This document shows, piece by piece, positions 22,756 through 33,162 of a DNA stretch of 64,000 nt. Position numbers and translations under genes: made by a program. Source of the stretch: Polyangia bacterium (GTDB lineage Bacteria; Myxococcota_A; Polyangia; Fen-1088); contig DATATI010000002.1 of the NCBI GenBank assembly GCA_036268875.1, positions 1-64,000 on the forward strand, given 5' to 3'. The first letter of the stretch is position 1. Every line of letters starts with the position of its first letter. The notes below the pieces were generated by a model. It was not told the origin of the DNA and made no database searches. It saw only the letters and a program-made list of their open reading frames with translations.

Positions 22756-22826
22756 CTCGGCGGCGGCTGGCAGCCGCGCGTGTTAAACCTGCGACCGTGG
22801 GAGGCAATCAAAGCGGGAGCGGGCCA

Positions 22827-24254
22827 ATGAAGATCCTGGTGATCGACGACGAAGTCGAGCTCCGCGGGGTCATCTCGGATGTTCTGCGCGACGCCGGCCA
22901 CCAGGTCGTCGAAGCCGGCGACGATGGTCCCGCCGCGCGCACGTTGGTGGATGAAGGCGGCTTTGATCTGGTGCTCAGCGACGTGCGGTTGCCGGGCGTC
23001 GATGGGTTAGAGCTGTTCCGGCGCGCCCGCACCACGTCGCCCTTGTCCGATTTCATGCTGATGACCGCCTTCGCCGATGTTGGCGAAGCGGTGGCCGCGC
23101 TGAAAGAGGGCGCCGCCGACTACCTGACCAAACCGTTCGACCCCGACGAGCTTTTGCACCAGGTCAGCCGCATCCAGGCCAGCCGGGCCATGCGCCGCGA
23201 GCTGATCGAAGCGCGGCAGGCACTGGCCCAGCGCTCGCCGGCCAACCAGCTGGTCGGCCAATCGCCGCAGATGCTGAAGATCCAGGCCCGCATCGAGATG
23301 ATCGCGCAAAGCGACGCCGCCACGCTGATCACCGGCGAGAGCGGCACCGGCAAGGAACTGGTGGCCCGGCTGCTGCACGATCGCGGCGCCCGCGCCCAAA
23401 AGCCATTCGTCGCGGTCAACTGCGCCGGCTTTCCCGACACCTTGATCGAAGCCGAGCTGTTCGGCGTCGAGCGCGGCGCTTTCACCGGCGCGGTCAAGCG
23501 CCGCGAAGGCCGATTCAAAGCCGCCGACGGCGGGACGCTGTTTCTCGACGAGGTCGCCGAGCTGCCCCTGACGGCACAGGCCAAGCTGCTACGGGTCCTG
23601 CAAGAAGGCATCGTCGAGCCGCTGGGCACCAACACGGCGATCAAGGTCGACGTCCGCCTGGTCTCCGCCACCCACCGCAACCTGCGCGAACGGATCGCCG
23701 CCGGGCTTTTTCGGGAAGATCTCTTTTATCGCATCAACGTCCTGGACGTGGCGTTGCCGACGCTGCGCGAACGCGACGGCGACCTGCCCATCCTGGTGCA
23801 ATTTTTTCTGGACGGGTTCGCCCGCGCCGACGGTCAGGGCAAGCCCAGGGCGCCCACCATCTCGAGTGACGCTTACGGGGCGCTGAGCGCATACGGTTAT
23901 CCCGGCAACGTGCGCGAGCTGGCCCACGCCATCGAACACGCGGTGGTGCTGGCTGGCGGCGGCGAGATCACCCTCGATCATCTGCCCGCGGCGATCGCCG
24001 AAGCGGCGCCCGCCGGTCGAGCGAAGGCAGCCGCGGCGAATGGCTCAGCGCCGGTGGTGGAGGCCGACGTCGCCGCGCCGCTGGCCCAGGCGGTGCGGGC
24101 CTTTGAAAAGGCCCATCTTTTGAAGGTGCTGAACGCCGCCGGTGGCAAACGGGTGCGCGCCGCCGAGATGCTGGGCATCTCGCGCAAGAGCCTGTGGGAA
24201 AAATTGCGCTCCTATGACCAGGCCGAAGCCGAACGCGACAAAGAATCCGACTGA
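22827..24254 (+). CDS. NtrC-family sigma-54-dependent response regulator
   Basis: The 475-residue protein has three domains: receiver (1-120, phospho-acceptor Asp52 in SDVRLPGVDG, Lys102), AAA+ (about 143-375) and a Fis-type helix-turn-helix at the C terminus (RVRAAEMLGISRKSLWEKL). In the AAA+ domain the Walker A is GESGTGKE (170-177), the sigma-54 contact loop is intact as GAFTGA (217-222), and Walker B is GGTLFLDEV (235-243), so it should activate sigma-54 promoters. No cognate kinase is in the same operon, but four kinases lie within 8 kb. ATG 22827 is chosen because the receiver starts at residue 2. Four sigma-54-like promoters in the window are candidate targets. Confidence 0.92.
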   Translation: MKILVIDDEVELRGVISDVLRDAGHQVVEAGDDGPAARTLVDEGGFDLVLSDVRLPGVDGLELFRRARTTSPLSDFMLMTAFADVGEAVAALKEGAADYLTKPFDPDELLHQVSRIQASRAMRRELIEARQALAQRSPANQLVGQSPQMLKIQARIEMIAQSDAATLITGESGTGKELVARLLHDRGARAQKPFVAVNCAGFPDTLIEAELFGVERGAFTGAVKRREGRFKAADGGTLFLDEVAELPLTAQAKLLRVLQEGIVEPLGTNTAIKVDVRLVSATHRNLRERIAAGLFREDLFYRINVLDVALPTLRERDGDLPILVQFFLDGFARADGQGKPRAPTISSDAYGALSAYGYPGNVRELAHAIEHAVVLAGGGEITLDHLPAAIAEAAPAGRAKAAAANGSAPVVEADVAAPLAQAVRAFEKAHLLKVLNAAGGKRVRAAEMLGISRKSLWEKLRSYDQAEAERDKESD

Positions 24255-24289: not shown

Positions 24290-25495
24290 TCAAGCAGCGC
24301 GGTCTTCGAAACGCGGTCGGTGATGATCGTGCGGGTGGTGGTCGCCGCGCTCGATGCTTTCGACGGCGGCCAGCAGGCCGCCTAGGTTCGACAGCAGACC
24401 CAGCCTGCGGCGCGAGGTGCTTTTCTTGGCCAGCGACTCGGCGGTCAGCTGATCAAAGCGAGCGCGGATGTCCGCCACGGTGACCGGGGCCTGAGCGGCG
24501 TCCTGGCGGGCGCGAAACGCCGCTTCGATGGTGATCTGTACGGCGGCGGCCACTGCCGGGGCGAGAACCAAGCCGATCCACCCGATGGTGCTGGCCAGCA
24601 GCAAGGCCACGAACGCCACCAACAGCGGATTGTATTCGCGCGACCGAAGCATCCGCGGAACGATCCGTTGCAACGCCAGCAGCAATGCTCCGGTGCACAG
24701 AGCAACGATCGCCGCCATCACCACGCCCAGCGGCGCCACCGCCACCGCCACGACCAGCATCGACAGACCCAGGCCCGCGATCGGCACCACGCGCAGCACC
24801 GCCACCAGCAACGCCGTCGAGATCGGGGCCGGCGCGTGCAGCGCCGCCAGCGCCAGCGCCGTCACTGCCAGGGCGATCAGCGATTTGCACGTCTCGCCGA
24901 AAACATGCAGTCCCACGCCGACCCCGAGATCCGACGCCAGCCGGCGGAAAAGCGGACGCAGCTCGGCAGGGATCAGCGCCGCCAGGCCGGACATCACCGG
25001 CTCGCGGTGAACGGACCAGCTCAGGCTCAGCACCACCACCAACACACTGGAGGCCAGCGCCTGCAGCACCATCAGCGTGGCGTGCCACGCGCCACCCATG
25101 AGCGCCGCCGACCGCACATGCGTGGCCAGCGCCGTCGCCGACGGCAGCCAGTGCGCCAGCAACGCCAACCGCCCGCCGGCCCCGCGCCAGCCGCCGAGGT
25201 GCCGTTCGTACGACGGCAAAAAACCATCCAGGGCCGCGGTCAACTCGTTGCCGACGCTGGGAAGCAGCAATGCCACTACCGTCACCGGCGCCGCCGCCGC
25301 GCAGAGATAGCCAATCACCAGGGCCAACCCGCGCGGAACGCGGTAACGAATCAGGGCCATCACCAGCGGGCGAACCGCGGCGGCCAGCACAATGGCCAGC
25401 GCCAGCAACGCCACCACCAGGCGCAACCGATAAAGCAGACTGATGGCGGTCAGCGTGGCGGCCGCCAGCGCGGTCACTTGCGCCACGCGCCTCAC
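24290..25495 (-). CDS. AI-2E family (PerM-like) membrane transporter, second of pair
   Basis: The 401-residue protein is hydrophobic with about eight helices in the AI-2E/PerM arrangement: N-terminal helix pair, a periplasmic-type segment near 85-115 (VGNELTAALDGFLPSYERH), and a C-terminal block of close helices with TIGWIGLVLAPAVAAAV. The C-terminal tail (about 330-401) is polar and basic, and ends in a His-rich run (HHPHDHH). Family members export small molecules or act as Na+/H+ exchangers; the name AI-2E refers to one member. It is more divergent than its partner. Its start overlaps the partner's stop by four bases (ATGA), so the two are co-translated and could form a hetero-oligomer. Confidence 0.8.
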   Translation of the reverse strand: MRRVAQVTALAAATLTAISLLYRLRLVVALLALAIVLAAAVRPLVMALIRYRVPRGLALVIGYLCAAAAPVTVVALLLPSVGNELTAALDGFLPSYERHLGGWRGAGGRLALLAHWLPSATALATHVRSAALMGGAWHATLMVLQALASSVLVVVLSLSWSVHREPVMSGLAALIPAELRPLFRRLASDLGVGVGLHVFGETCKSLIALAVTALALAALHAPAPISTALLVAVLRVVPIAGLGLSMLVVAVAVAPLGVVMAAIVALCTGALLLALQRIVPRMLRSREYNPLLVAFVALLLASTIGWIGLVLAPAVAAAVQITIEAAFRARQDAAQAPVTVADIRARFDQLTAESLAKKSTSRRRLGLLSNLGGLLAAVESIERGDHHPHDHHRPRFEDRAA

Positions 25496-26742
25496 GACAT
25501 CACCTGGGGTGGCGTCGGTGATTCAGCGTCGGACAATAGCCGCGCGGTGCGCAAGGCCAGCAACTCGGCGGCGTCTTCGACGGTGCAATCGCGTCCCACC
25601 GCCGCGCGCTGGCGGCCCATGCGCCGGGCCGCCAAGGCCACCGTGATGGCGCGGTAGCGCAGCAAGCTGACCGCGTCGCGCCCCTCCGGCGCCACCTCGC
25701 GCGGCGCCTGTACCAACAAGCGGGTCAGCCCCATCTGCAGCAGCGCCGCGATGGGCACCGCCACCATCGCGCCCATGACGCCGCCAAGAGCACCCAGCGC
25801 CACCACGGTCAACAAGACCAGCAGCGGATTGATCCCCACCGACTTTCCCATCACGAAAGGCGTCAGCAGATAGTCGCTGGCCATGCGCAGGGCCGCGGCG
25901 AAAATAATCACCGGGACGATCAGCGACGTCTCCGTGCCCGCCGCGCACAGCACGCCGACCGCCGCCGCCATCAGCGGGCCGGCGATGGGAATGACCTCGG
26001 CGAAGGCGGCGATGGTCCCCAGGGCCAGCGCGCCGGGGACGCCGCTGATCAAATAAAAGATCGTCGTCACTGTGCCGACGATGAAAGACAGCAGCGCCTG
26101 CCCGCGCACGAAGGCGCCCAGCCGCCCGTCGATCTCGTCCATCAGCACGCGGCCCGCGTCGCGGCGCTCGGGCGCGACCAGCTTCAGGATCCCGCGCTGG
26201 ATGGTGGCCCGTTCGGTGATCCAGGCGTAGGCGCCCACCAGCGCCGCGGCGGCCGCCCACAGCGGATCGCCCAAGCTTTCGACGGCGGTCCAGTTCGCGC
26301 TGGTCACCGTCGCCAGGCCGCAATCACCGGGCAGCGCTTGCTGGATGGTGCTGGTCAGCAGGTGCGACGGACGCGACAGGGTCCAGGCGCGCAGCGATCG
26401 ACAGATCTGCGGCGCGCGCTCGGCGACGTGTCCAATTTGATCGGCCACCGTCGGGAACAGCAGCAAAGCGGCGCCGCCGCAGATCATCACCAGCAGCGCC
26501 AGCACCAGAAATCCGGCCACATGGCGGGGGATGCCCCGTCCGGTCAGCCACATCACCGCGGGCTCGCTGGACACGGCCAGCACCAACCCGAGGACCAGAT
26601 ACGGCAGCACGCCGCCGGCCAGCGACAGCAAGGCGAACGCCCCCGCCACCGCGACCGCCACCAATGTCGCCAGCACCAACCGGCGCGGCGTCCACGCCGG
26701 CGGCGCCGTGGTGGCGCCGGGCGCAGGATCGATCGCCGTCAT
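25492..26742 (-). CDS. AI-2E family (PerM-like) membrane transporter, first of pair
   Basis: The 416-residue protein shows the standard AI-2E family signature in its C-terminal half: GVPGALALGTIAAFAEVIPIAGP, then SDYLLTPFVMGKSVGINPLLVLL and GALGGVMGAMVAVPIAA. The N-terminal helices start near residue 20 after a Pro/Ala-rich leader. The C-terminal 70 residues are soluble. It is the first gene of a two-gene unit with a second, more divergent paralogue overlapping by four bases. A sigma-54-like element lies at 26829-26844. Whether it handles autoinducer-2, another small molecule, or ions cannot be told from sequence. Confidence 0.88.
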   Translation of the reverse strand: MTAIDPAPGATTAPPAWTPRRLVLATLVAVAVAGAFALLSLAGGVLPYLVLGLVLAVSSEPAVMWLTGRGIPRHVAGFLVLALLVMICGGAALLLFPTVADQIGHVAERAPQICRSLRAWTLSRPSHLLTSTIQQALPGDCGLATVTSANWTAVESLGDPLWAAAAALVGAYAWITERATIQRGILKLVAPERRDAGRVLMDEIDGRLGAFVRGQALLSFIVGTVTTIFYLISGVPGALALGTIAAFAEVIPIAGPLMAAAVGVLCAAGTETSLIVPVIIFAAALRMASDYLLTPFVMGKSVGINPLLVLLTVVALGALGGVMGAMVAVPIAALLQMGLTRLLVQAPREVAPEGRDAVSLLRYRAITVALAARRMGRQRAAVGRDCTVEDAAELLALRTARLLSDAESPTPPQVMS

Positions 26743-26969: not shown

Positions 26970-28493
26970 TCAGCCCGGCTTGGTATGGCCCTTTGGCGGC
27001 GTGAGCAGCGCCTGGTCAACGGCCGGTGGCTGCTTGGGCAGGCGCACCGTGAAGCACGTTCCTTCTCCGCGCGCCGAGCGAACCGTGATCGTCCCGCTGT
27101 GCGCGTCGACGATGCGGCGAACGATGTAAAGACCCAGACCCAGGCTGTGGCGTCCCGCGCCTGGGCCGCGGCGGTAGGCTTCGAAGACGTGGGGCAGGAA
27201 CTCCGGCGCGATGGGCTCGCCTTGATTCTCCACCGACAGATCAAGGGCCTTGCCGTCGGGCACCGTCGCGCAGGTCACGGCGACCGCGGTGCCGGCGGCG
27301 CTGTATTTCACGGCGTTGCCCAGCAGGTTTTGCAGCACCTGGTGCAGCCGATCGGGATCCCAGGTGCCGCGCAGGTCGCCCTGCTTGCGCAGCGAAAATT
27401 CGCGGCCGGCGTGGGCGGCGCGCGCCTCGTTGACCGCGTCGTCGGCGATGACGCCCAGATCGCAGGTCCGCAGGCGGACCGGAATGCCCTTGCCCAGCGC
27501 CGCCGCGGTGTAGTCGAACAGATCTTCGATCATCCGCCCCATGCGGCTGGCGCTTGAAGTGATGCGCGTGGCGGTCTTCACGCGCCGGTCGTCCGGCAGC
27601 GAATCAGCGCGGGCCAGGATGGCGGCGTTCATGGCGATCGCCGACAGCGGGTTGCGCAGATCATGGCTGGCGATGGCCATGACCTGACGTTGATAGGCCT
27701 CGGTGGCGCGCAGCTCGGTCAGATCGTCGAACTGGATCAACGTGGCCGCCTTGGCCCCGTCGTCGCCAATGACATCCAGGCGGCGCAGCCGCACCACTGC
27801 GCTGCCGCGCGCGCCGACCACCTTGAAGTCCTCTGACTCGGCGTCGCCGCCGCCCAGCGCAGCCGCCAGCGCCTGCCGACCGCGCGGCACGTCCGGCAGG
27901 CGCGCCGAACCGGCCACCAGTTCGGCCAGCGTCTCCGCGTGGGCCAGATCGGCGCCCAGCATTTCCAATGAACGGGCGTTGCGCAGCAAGATGCGGCCGT
28001 GCGGATCGGCGATGATCAGGCCCGCGGGGAGCTGTTCGATCACCGCATTCAAAAGACTCTGCTGGTTTTGTATGCGCGTCTCGGCCAGCTGGCGCTCCCG
28101 TTCAGCCAGGCTGGCGCGGCTGGCCCGGCGCACCACCTGATCCAGGCGATCGCGCGACAGCGCTCGCTTGGGCAAATAATCGGCGGCGCCGGCGTTCAGC
28201 AGGCGCACCACCACGTCGGCGTCATCGAGGCCGGTCAACATGACGACCGGCACCAGGACCTTGGCCACGCCGAACGCCGCCAGCGCCGAGAAGCCGTCGC
28301 CATCGGGCAGCGAATAGTCCAGTAGCACGCAGTCCACCGCCGATGGATGATCGCGCAGCCGGGTCATCGCCTGTCCCAGAGATCCCGCCTCGGCGACCTG
28401 AAACCCGAGACCCTCGCCCAGGCGGCGCACGGCCATGCGATCCACCTCGTCGTCGTCGACGACCAGGACGTTCAAGATCTGGGGGGCGTTCAC
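26970..28493 (-). CDS. Receiver-PAS-histidine kinase
   Basis: The 507-residue protein has an N-terminal receiver (LVVDDDEVDRMAVRRL; phospho-acceptor Asp in LLDYSLPDGDG), a short coiled linker, a PAS domain (about 150-270, LPAGLIIADPHGRILLRN), a HisKA dimerisation domain with the H-box IASHDLRNPLSAI, and a HATPase_c domain with the G-box LGLGLYIVRRIVDAHSG. It is cytoplasmic. The GTG at 28493 is taken as start because it overlaps the upstream receiver gene's TGA by four bases (GTGA); an in-frame upstream start at 28514 would overlap more. It is the last gene of a four-gene kinase operon. Confidence 0.88.
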   Translation of the reverse strand: MNAPQILNVLVVDDDEVDRMAVRRLGEGLGFQVAEAGSLGQAMTRLRDHPSAVDCVLLDYSLPDGDGFSALAAFGVAKVLVPVVMLTGLDDADVVVRLLNAGAADYLPKRALSRDRLDQVVRRASRASLAERERQLAETRIQNQQSLLNAVIEQLPAGLIIADPHGRILLRNARSLEMLGADLAHAETLAELVAGSARLPDVPRGRQALAAALGGGDAESEDFKVVGARGSAVVRLRRLDVIGDDGAKAATLIQFDDLTELRATEAYQRQVMAIASHDLRNPLSAIAMNAAILARADSLPDDRRVKTATRITSSASRMGRMIEDLFDYTAAALGKGIPVRLRTCDLGVIADDAVNEARAAHAGREFSLRKQGDLRGTWDPDRLHQVLQNLLGNAVKYSAAGTAVAVTCATVPDGKALDLSVENQGEPIAPEFLPHVFEAYRRGPGAGRHSLGLGLYIVRRIVDAHSGTITVRSARGEGTCFTVRLPKQPPAVDQALLTPPKGHTKPG

Positions 28494-28954
28494 GGAAGCT
28501 CGACCAGCGTCCAATACTTGTTCAAAGTGCTCATCAATTCGGAAAAGCCAAGGAACGAGACCGGCTTCAGCAGATAGCCGGCCACGTTCAGATGATACGC
28601 CTCGACCTTATCGCGGTCGTCGTTCGACGTGGTCAGCACCACCACCGGCAGCGACGACAGCGCGGGATCGCGGCGAATGGCGTGCAGAAACTCGAGGCCG
28701 TTCATGCGCGGCATGTTCAGATCCAGCAGCACCAGGCGGCGCTGCGCCGGCACCACCCCGTTGCGCAGCATCTCCAGCGCCTCGACGCCGTTGCCCGCGG
28801 TCCACAGCGGGTTGGTGATGTTGTTCTTGCGAAAGGCGCGGCGGACGTTTTCCACGTCCACCTCGTCGTCCTCGACCAGCAAGATGTTCAGCGGGTGTCC
28901 GGTCAGGGCGGCGCTTTTTTCTTCCGCCGAGATCTCATGGTCGGGGTCGTTCAT
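28490..28954 (-). CDS. Rcp1-type single-domain response regulator
   Basis: The 154-residue protein is a receiver of the Rcp1 type, recognised by LLVEDDEVDVENVRRAF, the Asp-bearing LVLLDLNMPRMNGLEFL, VVVLTTS and the Lys of LLKPVSF. Such regulators usually pair with phytochrome-like or CHASE3 kinases. There is no output domain. It overlaps the upstream kinase stop by four bases and the downstream kinase start by four bases, so it sits in the middle of a phosphorelay operon. Confidence 0.9.
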   Translation of the reverse strand: MNDPDHEISAEEKSAALTGHPLNILLVEDDEVDVENVRRAFRKNNITNPLWTAGNGVEALEMLRNGVVPAQRRLVLLDLNMPRMNGLEFLHAIRRDPALSSLPVVVLTTSNDDRDKVEAYHLNVAGYLLKPVSFLGFSELMSTLNKYWTLVELP

Positions 28955-30372
28955 GCGCGCTCCTGTGGTTGGTCATAGTGTTCGATGAACTGTTTGGGCC
29001 AGGCGACGTGGAAGGTGGCGCCCGCGCCCGGCGACGACTCCACCCAGGTGGTCCCGCCCCGGCTCTCGACGATCTTTCGCACCGTCGCCAGCCCGATGCC
29101 GGTGCCGCCTGTCTTGTCGCGCGACTCCAGGGTCTGGAACACGCCCCAGATGCGTTCGTGAAACTCCTTGGCGATCCCCGGGCCATTGTCCTTGACGGTG
29201 AAGTCCCAGAACATCCCGCTGTCCGCCACGTCGATCTGGACCCGCAGGTGGTCGGTCTGTCCGTGCTTGAGCGCGTTATCGATCAGGTTCTGGAAGACCT
29301 GCTGCATCGGCACCGGCTCGGCGGTCAACTGCGGTAGGTGGGCGCCGATCTCCACCGTGGCCTTGGCGCTGGGGGACAAAAGCTCGACGATGTTGCGTAA
29401 AAGCTTGCCCACGTCGACCCGTTCGGGCGTCGACCGCTGCTGCCCGGCGCGCGAGTAGGAAAGGATCCCATCGACCAGCGCCTCCAGGCGCGCCACCCGG
29501 CCACGCAGCTGCAGCAGGTACTTGCGGCTGGTGTCGTTCAGGTGCTCGCCCATGTCTTCTTCGACCCAGGTGGACAGGCTGGCGATCCCGCGCAGCGGGG
29601 CCTTCAGATCGTGCGAGGCGGCGTACGCGAACCGATCCAGATCGCGGTTGCTGCGCTCGAGATCGCGGATCAGGCGCTCACGCTCGCGCTTTTCGTTCAC
29701 CAGACGCGCTTCCAGTCTCTCGCGCCGATCGAGGTCGCGCTGGATGCGCACCAGGCCCACGCCCATCCCTGCCAAGATGCCGGTGGCGCTGAGGATGATG
29801 GCGATGGCGATGTGATCAAAACGCGCTTTTACTTGCCGGCGCCGGGCCAGCAGGCGTTCCTCTTCGTGCATCATCTCGTCGATGAGCCCGCGCACCTGAT
29901 CGGTCAGGAACCGGCCGCGCTCGATGCGCGCGCGCAGCGGCGGACCATAACTGGATTCGCTCTCGGCGAGCCGCTCGTCGATGGTGGTGTCAACCAGGCG
30001 CAGCCGGTCCATGCCGCTGCCGCGCAACGCCCGTGCCCGAGCCTTCTGCTCCGGGTTGTCCGAGACCAGCCCTTCCAGGTGAGCCGTGGAAACCGCGAAG
30101 CGATCGGCGAACGGCGGCTTCGCCGCTTGCAAATAGCGAGCGTCGTCGGTCAACAGATAGCCGCGCTCCATGCTTTCGGCATCCAGCAGCAGCAGCAACG
30201 ATCGATCCAGCGCCGCCGCCACGTCATAGGAGTGGCTGACGGAATCGTCGACCACCTGCGATTTTCTTTCGATGACGAAGGCCAGGCCGGTCACCACCAG
30301 CAGCAATACACCGGCCGCCAGCGTGAAGACGATGGCTCGTGCTTTCGGATGTATTTCCGGCAGGACCGCCAT
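28951..30372 (-). CDS. Membrane histidine kinase with CHASE3 sensor domain
   Basis: The 473-residue protein has a first helix (about 14-36), an extracytoplasmic CHASE3 domain with the typical ESMERGYLLTDDARYL block, a second helix (about 200-222), a coiled coil with Arg-Glu repeats, HisKA with YAASHDLKAPLRGIASL, and HATPase_c with GTGIGLATVRKIVESRGG. CHASE3 ligands are unknown. This architecture is often paired with Rcp1-type receivers, as it is here. ATG 30372 is preferred; the frame opens at a TTG at 30411. It starts 47 bases after the Ser/Thr kinase stop and is probably co-transcribed with it. Confidence 0.88.
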   Translation of the reverse strand: MAVLPEIHPKARAIVFTLAAGVLLLVVTGLAFVIERKSQVVDDSVSHSYDVAAALDRSLLLLLDAESMERGYLLTDDARYLQAAKPPFADRFAVSTAHLEGLVSDNPEQKARARALRGSGMDRLRLVDTTIDERLAESESSYGPPLRARIERGRFLTDQVRGLIDEMMHEEERLLARRRQVKARFDHIAIAIILSATGILAGMGVGLVRIQRDLDRRERLEARLVNEKRERERLIRDLERSNRDLDRFAYAASHDLKAPLRGIASLSTWVEEDMGEHLNDTSRKYLLQLRGRVARLEALVDGILSYSRAGQQRSTPERVDVGKLLRNIVELLSPSAKATVEIGAHLPQLTAEPVPMQQVFQNLIDNALKHGQTDHLRVQIDVADSGMFWDFTVKDNGPGIAKEFHERIWGVFQTLESRDKTGGTGIGLATVRKIVESRGGTTWVESSPGAGATFHVAWPKQFIEHYDQPQERA

Positions 30373-30419
30373 TCCGTCGACCGTCTGTCGCGCGGCGGAA
30401 ATCGCCGCCAAGCACCGGT

Positions 30420-31742
30420 TCAGATCTTCAAGCGAGCACGAGCAGCGTCAATCCATTGACCGAATCCCTCCGCCACCCGACGCGCCTCCAGCCGCGCGGA
30501 AGACGACGCCGACGTCACCGCCCGCTGCGTGTCCAGCGGAGCGCTCATGCGGGCGCCGAGCAGCAGCACCAATACGATCAGCGTCAGCGTCACGCCGGCC
30601 AGGGCGCGCGGCGAGTAATAGCGCGCCGGCACCAGCAGCTCGTCGTCGAACGAATCGTCCTCCAGCGCGGTCATCGGCGCCGACACCAGCGACAGCGCGA
30701 CGTATGGAGACGACGAGGACGACGAAGATGAAGAATGCGACGGTGACGACAGCGATGAAGACGACGTCGAAAACAACGTCGACGGGCAACTGGTCGGCGG
30801 CAGCTCCAGCGCGCCGCACTGCCTGAGCGCCGCTTCCAGGGCCTCGGCAAACTCGAGCACCGACGAGAAACGGTCGTCGCGCGCGCGGGCCATCCCTTTG
30901 CGCAGCACCGCTTCGACCTCGGCGGCCGGCCACGAGACCTGGTCGGACAGGGTCTCTGGCTCGCCGTGAACGATGGCCGACAAGGTCGCCAGCGGCGTGT
31001 CGCCCCGAAACGGCGGCCGCCCCGCCAGCAGCGTGTGCGCCACCGCGGCCAACGCGAACTGGTCACTGCGCGCGTCGATCTCCTCGCGGCGGCCCAGCGC
31101 CTGCTCCGGCGACATGTACTCGGGCGTGCCCATCACCCTGCTGTCGGTGGTGATGCGCGGTCCGACGCCCGAGATCGAAATCCCAAAGTCGATCACCTTC
31201 ACCACCGGCGCCTGTCCCGACACCGTGATAAGGACAATGTTCTCCGGCTTGAGATCGCGGTGGATGACGCCCACCGCGTGCGCCGCCGCCAGGGCGCTGG
31301 CCACCTGACGAACAATCGACATCACCTCGACCGGCGCCAGCAGGCGCCCGCTGCGCAGGTCGGTGGCAAGATCAGGGCCGTCGATGAATTCGAGCACCAG
31401 ATAAGGAACGCCGTTCGGCGTGATGTTGAAGTCAACCACCTGCACCACGTTGGGGTGGCGCACGCCAGCCAGGATCTCCGCCTCGCGGCGAAAGCGCGCC
31501 AGTGATTCAGGGTGGTAGGCCAACTCGGCCTGCAACGCCTTCACGGCGAAGTACCCTGGCAAGCGCTGGTGAGCGGCCAAATACACCTCGCCCATCCCGC
31601 CCGAGGCGATGCGCTGGACGATGCGATAGGTGTTGTCCAGCACTGTGTCCGGTCCGAAGATCGCGCTGCCGGACGGGGAGAAGCCTGACATTATTTGGGG
31701 GGAATTACTGGGCGACTCGGAGGCGGCTAGTACATTTTCCAT
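30420..31742 (-). CDS. Membrane-anchored Ser/Thr protein kinase (PknB-like)
   Basis: The 440-residue protein has a Hanks-type kinase domain at about 38-310: glycine loop IASGGMGEVYLA, catalytic Lys in FAVKAL, HRDLKPEN catalytic loop, DFGIS metal-binding motif and GTPEYMSPEQ. After it come a poly-Ser segment (about 320-345), an acidic juxtamembrane part (LEDDSFDDELL), one transmembrane helix (AGVTLTLIVLVLLLGA) and a short extracytoplasmic tail of about 50 residues. GAAGGAA-type purines precede the ATG. It leads an operon with three two-component genes, so Ser/Thr and His-Asp signalling may be wired together. A sigma-54-like element lies about 33 bases upstream. Confidence 0.93.
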   Translation of the reverse strand: MENVLAASESPSNSPQIMSGFSPSGSAIFGPDTVLDNTYRIVQRIASGGMGEVYLAAHQRLPGYFAVKALQAELAYHPESLARFRREAEILAGVRHPNVVQVVDFNITPNGVPYLVLEFIDGPDLATDLRSGRLLAPVEVMSIVRQVASALAAAHAVGVIHRDLKPENIVLITVSGQAPVVKVIDFGISISGVGPRITTDSRVMGTPEYMSPEQALGRREEIDARSDQFALAAVAHTLLAGRPPFRGDTPLATLSAIVHGEPETLSDQVSWPAAEVEAVLRKGMARARDDRFSSVLEFAEALEAALRQCGALELPPTSCPSTLFSTSSSSLSSPSHSSSSSSSSSPYVALSLVSAPMTALEDDSFDDELLVPARYYSPRALAGVTLTLIVLVLLLGARMSAPLDTQRAVTSASSSARLEARRVAEGFGQWIDAARARLKI

Positions 31743-32109
31743 TGGGTGTTCCTTCGTGGGGCGCGCTGATGTTCATCAAGATGTGTGCCATGGCGCGACA
31801 GCCTCCGAAGCCCGTGTCGGCGGTTCGGCGGTGGCAGCACCGGCGGCAAATCGGTTTCGCCGCGGTAGCAACGTCACCTCCTGGAAACACTGGCTCGCGG
31901 TTGCGACCCTGCCTTCCACGCTATCTGATCGATAGGCAGACCCCACTCGCGGGACCAAACTCGCGTGGAAAAAATTGGCCCCGACGGCCTGCATCGCACC
32001 GATTTTTCTAGCGGTCCTGCCCGTTAGCGGAAGAGCCGCGGGCACCGATTCAAGGCGCGGGCGATGATCCAGCGCTGACGTGGCGTGCGGCTTGCTTTGT
32101 GGTGGCGAC
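31743..32109. other. Divergent intergenic region between Ser/Thr kinase and RpoH-like genes
   Basis: These 367 bases hold no convincing gene. Besides the sigma-54-like element at 31775-31790 there is a small inverted repeat, CTATC-N5-GATAG, near 31920-31934, and two ACTCGCG copies near 31947 and 31963. It must contain the start signals for both flanking genes. No RNA gene was recognised. Confidence 0.6.
31775..31790 (-). promoter_or_regulatory. Sigma-54-like -24/-12 element before Ser/Thr kinase operon
   Basis: On the minus strand the sequence is TGGCAC-ACATC-TTGAT. It has a perfect -24 half, the right five-base spacer and the same TTGAT -12 half as the element before the AI-2E pair. A start point near 31764 would give a 22-base leader that still includes the GAAGGAA ribosome-binding site before ATG 31742. 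Confidence 0.5.
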
Positions 32110-33162
32110 ATGCAAAGCAACGCGGAAAGAATCGAATCGTCAAGTGACGATCGCGGTCCCCACTCGACCGGCGCCGTTGGCCGGTCCGGCAAGAACAAAA
32201 GCGCCGCCCTGAGCAGCGTGGCCGAGGAGGCCGCACCAGGTGAAGACCGGGACGGCGGCGGCGCGCGGGCTCCTCGCTCGGACGTTCGGTCGTCGATGGG
32301 TTGGTACCTGCACGACGTGCGTCGGTACCCCCTGCTCTCGCGCGAGGAAGAGCACGAAATCGCCCTCGAGTACGCCCGCACCGGGAAGAAGGCGCTGGCC
32401 GATCGGTTGACCACCGCCAACCTGCGCCTGGTGGTCAAGATCGCCCTCGAGTACAAGCGCGCCCACCACAACCTGCTTGACCTGGTCCAGGAAGGAAACA
32501 TGGGTCTCGTGCGGGCGGTGGAAAAATACGACGCCCGCCGCGGGGTCAAACTGGCGACCTACGCCTCCTGGTGGATTCGCGCGTACATTTTGAAGTTCAT
32601 CTTGGCCAACGCGCGCCTGGTCAAGATCGGAACCACCCAGGCCCAGCGCCGGTTGTTCTTCGGCCTTGGCCGCGAGCGGACGCGCCTGGAAAAACGCGGC
32701 GAAGGAAAGGCCGACACCAAACACCTGGCCGCCGTCTTCGACGTCAACGAAAGCCTGATTGTCGAGATGGAGCGACGCCTTGGCTCGAGCGAAGCCTCGC
32801 TGGACGCCCCGATGGCCCGCGGCATCGAAGGTGGCGACCGCACGCGCGGTGAATCGCTGAGCGCCGAGGCCGACGTGCGGCCCGACGTGCAGTCTGAAAC
32901 CTCCGAGTTCCGCGCGGCTCTGCAGCGCGAGCTGGCCGTCTTCGAGAAGACCTTGAAGGGCCGCGACATCGAAATCTTCCACGCCCGACTGGTGGCCGAA
33001 GACGGCAAGACCCTGATGGAGATCGCCGACACGTTCGGGGTCAGCCGTGAACGGGTACGCCAGATCGAATCGCGCCTGAAGAAGCGCCTGCGCCAGCACC
33101 TGCGCCAGACCCTGGGCGACGCCGTCCCCGCCGAGGGCGAAAGCGCCGCGCTGACGATGTGA
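32110..33162 (+). CDS. RpoH-like sigma-70 family (heat-shock type) sigma factor
   Basis: The 350-residue protein has sigma region 1.2 (SMGWYLHDVRRYPLLSREEE), region 2 (NLRLVVKIALEY, DLVQEGNMGLVRAVEKYD, LATYASWWIRAYI) and the RpoH-type block FILANARLVKIGTTQAQRRL, where other primary sigma factors differ. Region 3 is short, and region 4 is a clear helix-turn-helix at the C terminus (TLMEIADTFGVSRERVRQIESRLKKRL). The N-terminal 60 residues are Ser/Gly/Asp-rich and poorly conserved, so the start is uncertain: ATG 32110 is used, 32080 and a later ATG before GWYLHD are alternatives. RpoH factors drive heat-shock genes; myxobacteria have several paralogues, so its regulon may differ. Confidence 0.87.
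   Translation: MQSNAERIESSSDDRGPHSTGAVGRSGKNKSAALSSVAEEAAPGEDRDGGGARAPRSDVRSSMGWYLHDVRRYPLLSREEEHEIALEYARTGKKALADRLTTANLRLVVKIALEYKRAHHNLLDLVQEGNMGLVRAVEKYDARRGVKLATYASWWIRAYILKFILANARLVKIGTTQAQRRLFFGLGRERTRLEKRGEGKADTKHLAAVFDVNESLIVEMERRLGSSEASLDAPMARGIEGGDRTRGESLSAEADVRPDVQSETSEFRAALQRELAVFEKTLKGRDIEIFHARLVAEDGKTLMEIADTFGVSRERVRQIESRLKKRLRQHLRQTLGDAVPAEGESAALTM

Follow-up and report, generated by a model that had tools for sequence, protein, structure and literature searches.

A class-wide CHASE3 kinase–Rcp1 gene trio beside a Hanks-type kinase of different history in a Polyangia genome

Four minus-strand genes lie head to tail at 26970–31742 of the window (the whole stretch of 64,000 nucleotides analysed here), in a 6.15 Mb genome of 95 contigs. 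A Hanks-type Ser/Thr kinase stands first in transcription order and the components of a His-Asp relay follow, which raises the question of whether this kinase leads or regulates the relay, as the initial annotation suggested, or is a neighbor of separate origin. The features considered are listed below.

30420–31742, minus strand: Hanks-type Ser/Thr kinase, first in transcription order (Pfam Pkinase, E 8.7e-40)
28951–30372, minus strand: CHASE3-HisKA-HATPase membrane sensor histidine kinase, second (Pfam CHASE3, 1.3e-20; HATPase, 4.4e-27)
28490–28954, minus strand: Rcp1-type single-domain receiver, third (Pfam receiver, 2.2e-20)
26970–28493, minus strand: REC-PAS-HisKA-HATPase soluble histidine kinase, a REC-controlled kinase, fourth (Pfam domains)
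30373–30419, no strand: 47-base gap from the Ser/Thr kinase stop to the CHASE3 kinase ATG (sequence)
31743–32079, no strand: intergenic region common to the Ser/Thr kinase and a divergent sigma-70 family gene (sequence)

The open reading frames, Pfam matches and key residues confirm the four genes and their places as initially annotated, and all domains of the four proteins score above the Pfam cut-off. The spacing also holds, given an ATG start at 30372 and a GTG start at 28493: a 47-base gap is followed by two 4-base overlaps. Alternative upstream TTG starts at 30411 (CHASE3 kinase) and 28514 (REC-PAS kinase) would instead shorten the gap to 8 bases and lengthen the second overlap to 25. Neither a sigma-70-like promoter nor a terminator was detected in the gap at 30373–30419. 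This promoter scan decides nothing, because it returned zero sigma-70-like promoters anywhere in the 6.3 kb scanned; a short gap with no recognisable terminator or promoter is nonetheless consistent with a single transcript, and co-expression can matter. Based on the spacing, the Ser/Thr kinase and the trio that follows it are probably carried on one transcript in this genome, and the promoter of such an operon would be expected in the intergenic region 31743–32079. On the far side of this region, the sigma-70 family factor gene (32080–33162) diverges from the Ser/Thr kinase gene, with which it has this upstream region in common. Beyond the trio, 24290–26742 holds a tandem, same-strand pair of AI-2E family transporter genes that overlap by 4 bases.

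The three relay proteins are intact in their signaling residues: the phospho-acceptor His is present in both histidine kinases and the acceptor Asp in both receivers. In the first histidine kinase, the CHASE3 domain (residues 43–180) lies between two predicted membrane helices and is followed by HisKA, with the acceptor His254, and HATPase_c, the arrangement of a CHASE3 sensor histidine kinase. The best matches to its kinase core are bacteriophytochromes. The receiver gene at 28490–28954 overlaps this kinase gene by 4 bases, and its product carries an Rcp1-type C-terminal extension ending in KYWTLVELP. It matches the solved structures of Rcp1, RcpA and RcpB (1i3c/1jlk, 1k66, 1k68) up to residue 149, extension included, as expected of an Rcp1-type receiver; 6xvu and 5te9 match better still, and a bacteriophytochrome response regulator is among the matches. 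The last protein of the trio has an N-terminal receiver with its Asp intact and then an intact kinase core, which is the LvrB-like architecture of a REC-controlled kinase. Domains and residues thus bear out the initial description of these three proteins as the members of a His-Asp relay.

Each part of this relay has a counterpart among known systems. Cph1 and CphA are the partners of Rcp1 and RcpA. As in the window, the Cph1-Rcp1 and CphA-RcpA pairs are encoded by adjacent genes and combine the same type of histidine kinase core with the same type of single-domain receiver. In contrast, Cph1 and CphA have a PAS-GAF-PHY light sensor, whereas the window kinase has a CHASE3 membrane sensor; because CHASE3 takes the place of PAS-GAF-PHY, the window kinase is not a photoreceptor. 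A CHASE3 histidine kinase also begins the RsfS/RsfR pathway of Mycobacterium smegmatis and the RsbK/RsbY pathway of Bacillus cereus, where the regulator is a PP2C phosphatase with an anti-sigma antagonist as its target (PMC10950880). The regulator in the window is an Rcp1-type receiver, and the four-gene cluster contains no PP2C gene. In LvrA/LvrB of Leptospira and other REC-controlled kinases, an upstream histidine kinase activates a second through its N-terminal receiver (PMC13269768), and the trio may operate likewise. LvrB is REC-DHp-CA, whereas the REC-PAS kinase of the window has a PAS domain between receiver and kinase; in addition, the upstream kinase in the window is a CHASE3 membrane protein.

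Conservation of the trio was assessed by a class-wide search for Rcp1 in 192 genomes (threshold 1e-25). Matches were obtained in 49 genomes at 73 listed places, one of which is the window itself, and regions were fetched around 40 of the other 72. A related histidine kinase lies immediately upstream of Rcp1 in 31/40 loci and a REC-histidine kinase immediately downstream in 23/40, with both flanks present in 20/40. Gene order in relatives, the comparison proposed in the initial annotation, is therefore conserved as far as the trio is concerned. Across the fetched loci, the sensor part varies while the kinase core, the receiver and the gene order persist. Judged from these loci, the CHASE3 kinase–Rcp1–REC-PAS kinase trio is a relay of a known kind, ordinary and well conserved across the class.

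In a tree of histidine kinase/receiver pairs, the window pair falls among pairs from elsewhere in the class and away from every pair of its own family; no starred set of this tree holds the window (the row for the Sorangium locus L034 was mispaired, had a very long branch and was given no weight). Similarly, the best receiver elsewhere in its own family is 49% identical, versus 70% in another family. This separate placement could reflect transfer into the lineage or loss in relatives. Foreign base composition was considered as a sign of recent transfer and rejected: GC3 in the trio is 0.84–0.86, like that of its neighbors (0.82–0.89).

The best explanation of the locus, and one held with considerable though not full confidence, is a phytochrome-like branched phosphorelay that probably shares a transcript with the neighboring Hanks kinase. 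In its favor, the receiver matches Rcp1, RcpA and RcpB, the kinase core matches bacteriophytochromes best, and the gene order recurs. In the proposed mechanism, the CHASE3 membrane kinase would sense a periplasmic or membrane signal through its CHASE3 domain, autophosphorylate on His254 and pass the phosphate to the Rcp1-type receiver. In a second branch, phosphate would also go to the receiver domain of the REC-PAS protein, and the kinase part of that protein would then act on a further regulator. A branched relay fits the persistence of core, receiver and gene order alongside a variable sensor, and finds a parallel in LvrA-LvrB (PMC13269768). The Hanks kinase would be an older local gene, of a lineage not tied to the CHASE3-Rcp1 relay elsewhere.

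The Ser/Thr kinase is itself intact. Its kinase domain (residues 39–260 by Pfam match, reaching to about 300) retains the P-loop, the VAIK-type Lys, HRDLKPEN and DFG, as is characteristic of Hanks-type kinases, and its best match is PknB (2.2e-48). After the kinase domain come a Ser-rich linker that includes nine consecutive Ser, a single predicted membrane helix (381–399) and a 41-residue tail. PknB/PrkC-type Hanks kinases likewise have a PknB-matched kinase domain and one membrane helix; the window kinase differs in having the 41-residue tail only, with no PASTA or other extracytoplasmic domain, and Pfam finds nothing in it beyond the kinase domain. The initial annotation was correct in describing a short-tailed kinase lacking an extracytoplasmic sensor domain, but its figure of 50 residues for the tail is replaced by the measured 41. 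Its suggestion of CHASE3 as the likely sensor is also supported. Several relatives, including the Ser/Thr kinases of L131, L140 and L143, have in common a tail past the membrane helix with AxW-type and WxS/WIS stretches; a similar GQWI near the end of the window tail is weakly aligned.

The pairing of this kinase with the trio is not a recurrent one. No Ser/Thr kinase directly precedes the trio in any of the 40 fetched Rcp1 loci; a same-strand one is present within 4 kb in two of them (L111 and L127, the latter about 3 kb away). In L111 (5690–9943 in G102, from another family), a different, 295-residue Ser/Thr kinase follows the REC-histidine kinase of the trio after ~34 bases; the pairing is independent of that in the window, but a single such case is roughly the number expected by chance. 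Proximity within the genome itself gives the same picture. With weak and split rows left out, Ser/Thr kinase domains are matched 96 times and receiver or HATPase domains 203 times; 4/96 of the former, window pair included, have a two-component domain on the same strand no more than 2 kb away. In 500 random placements, which took each contig to be as long as its largest listed coordinate, such pairs numbered 4.5 ± 2.0. Thus, the four genes are more than chance as genes, but Ser/Thr–two-component pairing in this genome is not above random placement, and because proximity occurs at the random rate, the pairing in the window needs no special explanation. Where a genome has about a hundred domains of one kind versus two hundred of the other, operon-like adjacency says little about cross-talk between them.

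Phylogeny also separates the kinase from the trio. A tree of 39 kinase domains joins it to six others from its family (support 96/86), and its closest relatives are ~50% identical. None of these six other clade members adjoins an Rcp1 trio (0/6); other two-component genes are nearby instead. The claim that the Ser/Thr kinase leads or regulates the relay is therefore not supported, on three counts: 0/40 loci with a Ser/Thr kinase immediately upstream, six clade members that are not beside such a trio, and a random genome-wide rate. The conserved neighborhood by which the initial annotation would have judged the kinase–trio link is absent: conserved pairing of the kind expected for a Ser/Thr kinase-controlled two-component system is seen in 0/40 loci upstream, and a different kinase lies downstream in 1/40. 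These comparisons indicate that the four genes are two units of different history, a class-wide trio and a family-level Ser/Thr kinase. An operon that includes the kinase is plausible here but would be lineage-specific.

A stricter form of this separation, in which the 3′ end of the upstream kinase gene holds a separate promoter for the trio and the two units are neighbors by accident, is rather unlikely yet deserves to be taken seriously. It would account for the unconserved pairing of a class-wide trio with a family-level kinase. However, the intergenic distance of 47 bases or fewer argues against it, and the lack of sigma-70-like promoters in the region is uninformative for the reason given above.

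Cross-talk, in which the Ser/Thr kinase would tune the relay by phosphorylating a Ser or Thr on one of its three proteins (the CHASE3 kinase, the REC-PAS kinase or the Rcp1 receiver), is improbable. The spacing is operon-like, the intact catalytic residues suggest an active kinase, and there are precedents: Hanks kinases phosphorylate response regulators including WalR, CovR, GraR and VraR (PMC6213207), and serine phosphorylation regulates DegS of Bacillus subtilis (PMC3033389). All six fetched clade relatives also lie near two-component genes. Against this, the pairing with the trio is not conserved and genome-wide pairing is at the random rate. Searches of open-licence papers listed none in which a CHASE3-Rcp1 relay shares an operon with a Ser/Thr kinase. 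It is adjacency that points to phosphorylation of the relay by this kinase; the link is possible, and the comparative data lend it no support. Should the pairing prove functional, the locus would offer a compact system for studying such a link, since a single transcript would encode the sensor, the relay and the Ser/Thr kinase.

The surroundings of the clade relatives suggest a weaker association. A two-component gene lies within about 5.7 kb of 6/6 other clade members versus 3/14 other Ser/Thr kinase loci, the 14 being the remaining loci of 20 fetched together; distances were taken from approximate kinase midpoints with a 5.7 kb cut, and several loci end at contig ends. The one-sided Fisher p is about 0.002 by hand arithmetic, for members that share ancestry and are not independent. 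In G002 and G003, the neighbors include sigma-54 activators 55–58% identical to that at 22797–24254 in the window, and an AI-2E family transporter lies nearby in G008 and G003, as in the window. The Ser/Thr kinase lineage thus seems to belong in regulatory islands, which claims less than control of the CHASE3 relay. A loose functional tie of the clade to two-component signaling is possible, the six loci sharing ancestry. Because 6/6 fetched relatives sit among sigma-54 activators, receivers or histidine kinases, a stronger reading can be formulated, that of a short-tailed Hanks kinase clade specialized in tuning nearby two-component proteins, whose member here now fronts a CHASE3 phosphorelay that the genome acquired from beyond its own family; there is only a small chance that this is so.

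Very improbable is a relay that feeds the sigma-54 activator at 22797–24254, with the REC-PAS kinase as its moved partner: relatives of the activator do usually adjoin a sensor kinase with a related core (those in L129, L148, L149 and L161 lie near histidine kinases whose cores are 40–42% identical to that of the REC-PAS kinase), but both partner kinases searched against this genome had their best match at C7:66351, the window kinase ranking third in one list of matches and second in the other, and the sensor domains of the partners (MEDS, PAS) differ. The activator subgroup itself (22797–24254 and its homologs in L129, L130, L148, L149 and L161; 55–60% identical) is found in most genomes of the family, often near MEDS- or PAS-type histidine kinases, which the window copy is not. 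The contig of the window also contains two further dense receiver and histidine kinase clusters (G000:C2:54770-60461 and 77130-80154). Finally, elsewhere in the same genome, a 1663-residue open frame (G000:C90:13132-17934) combines Ser/Thr kinase and histidine kinase ATPase domains and would encode a fused Ser/Thr-His kinase.
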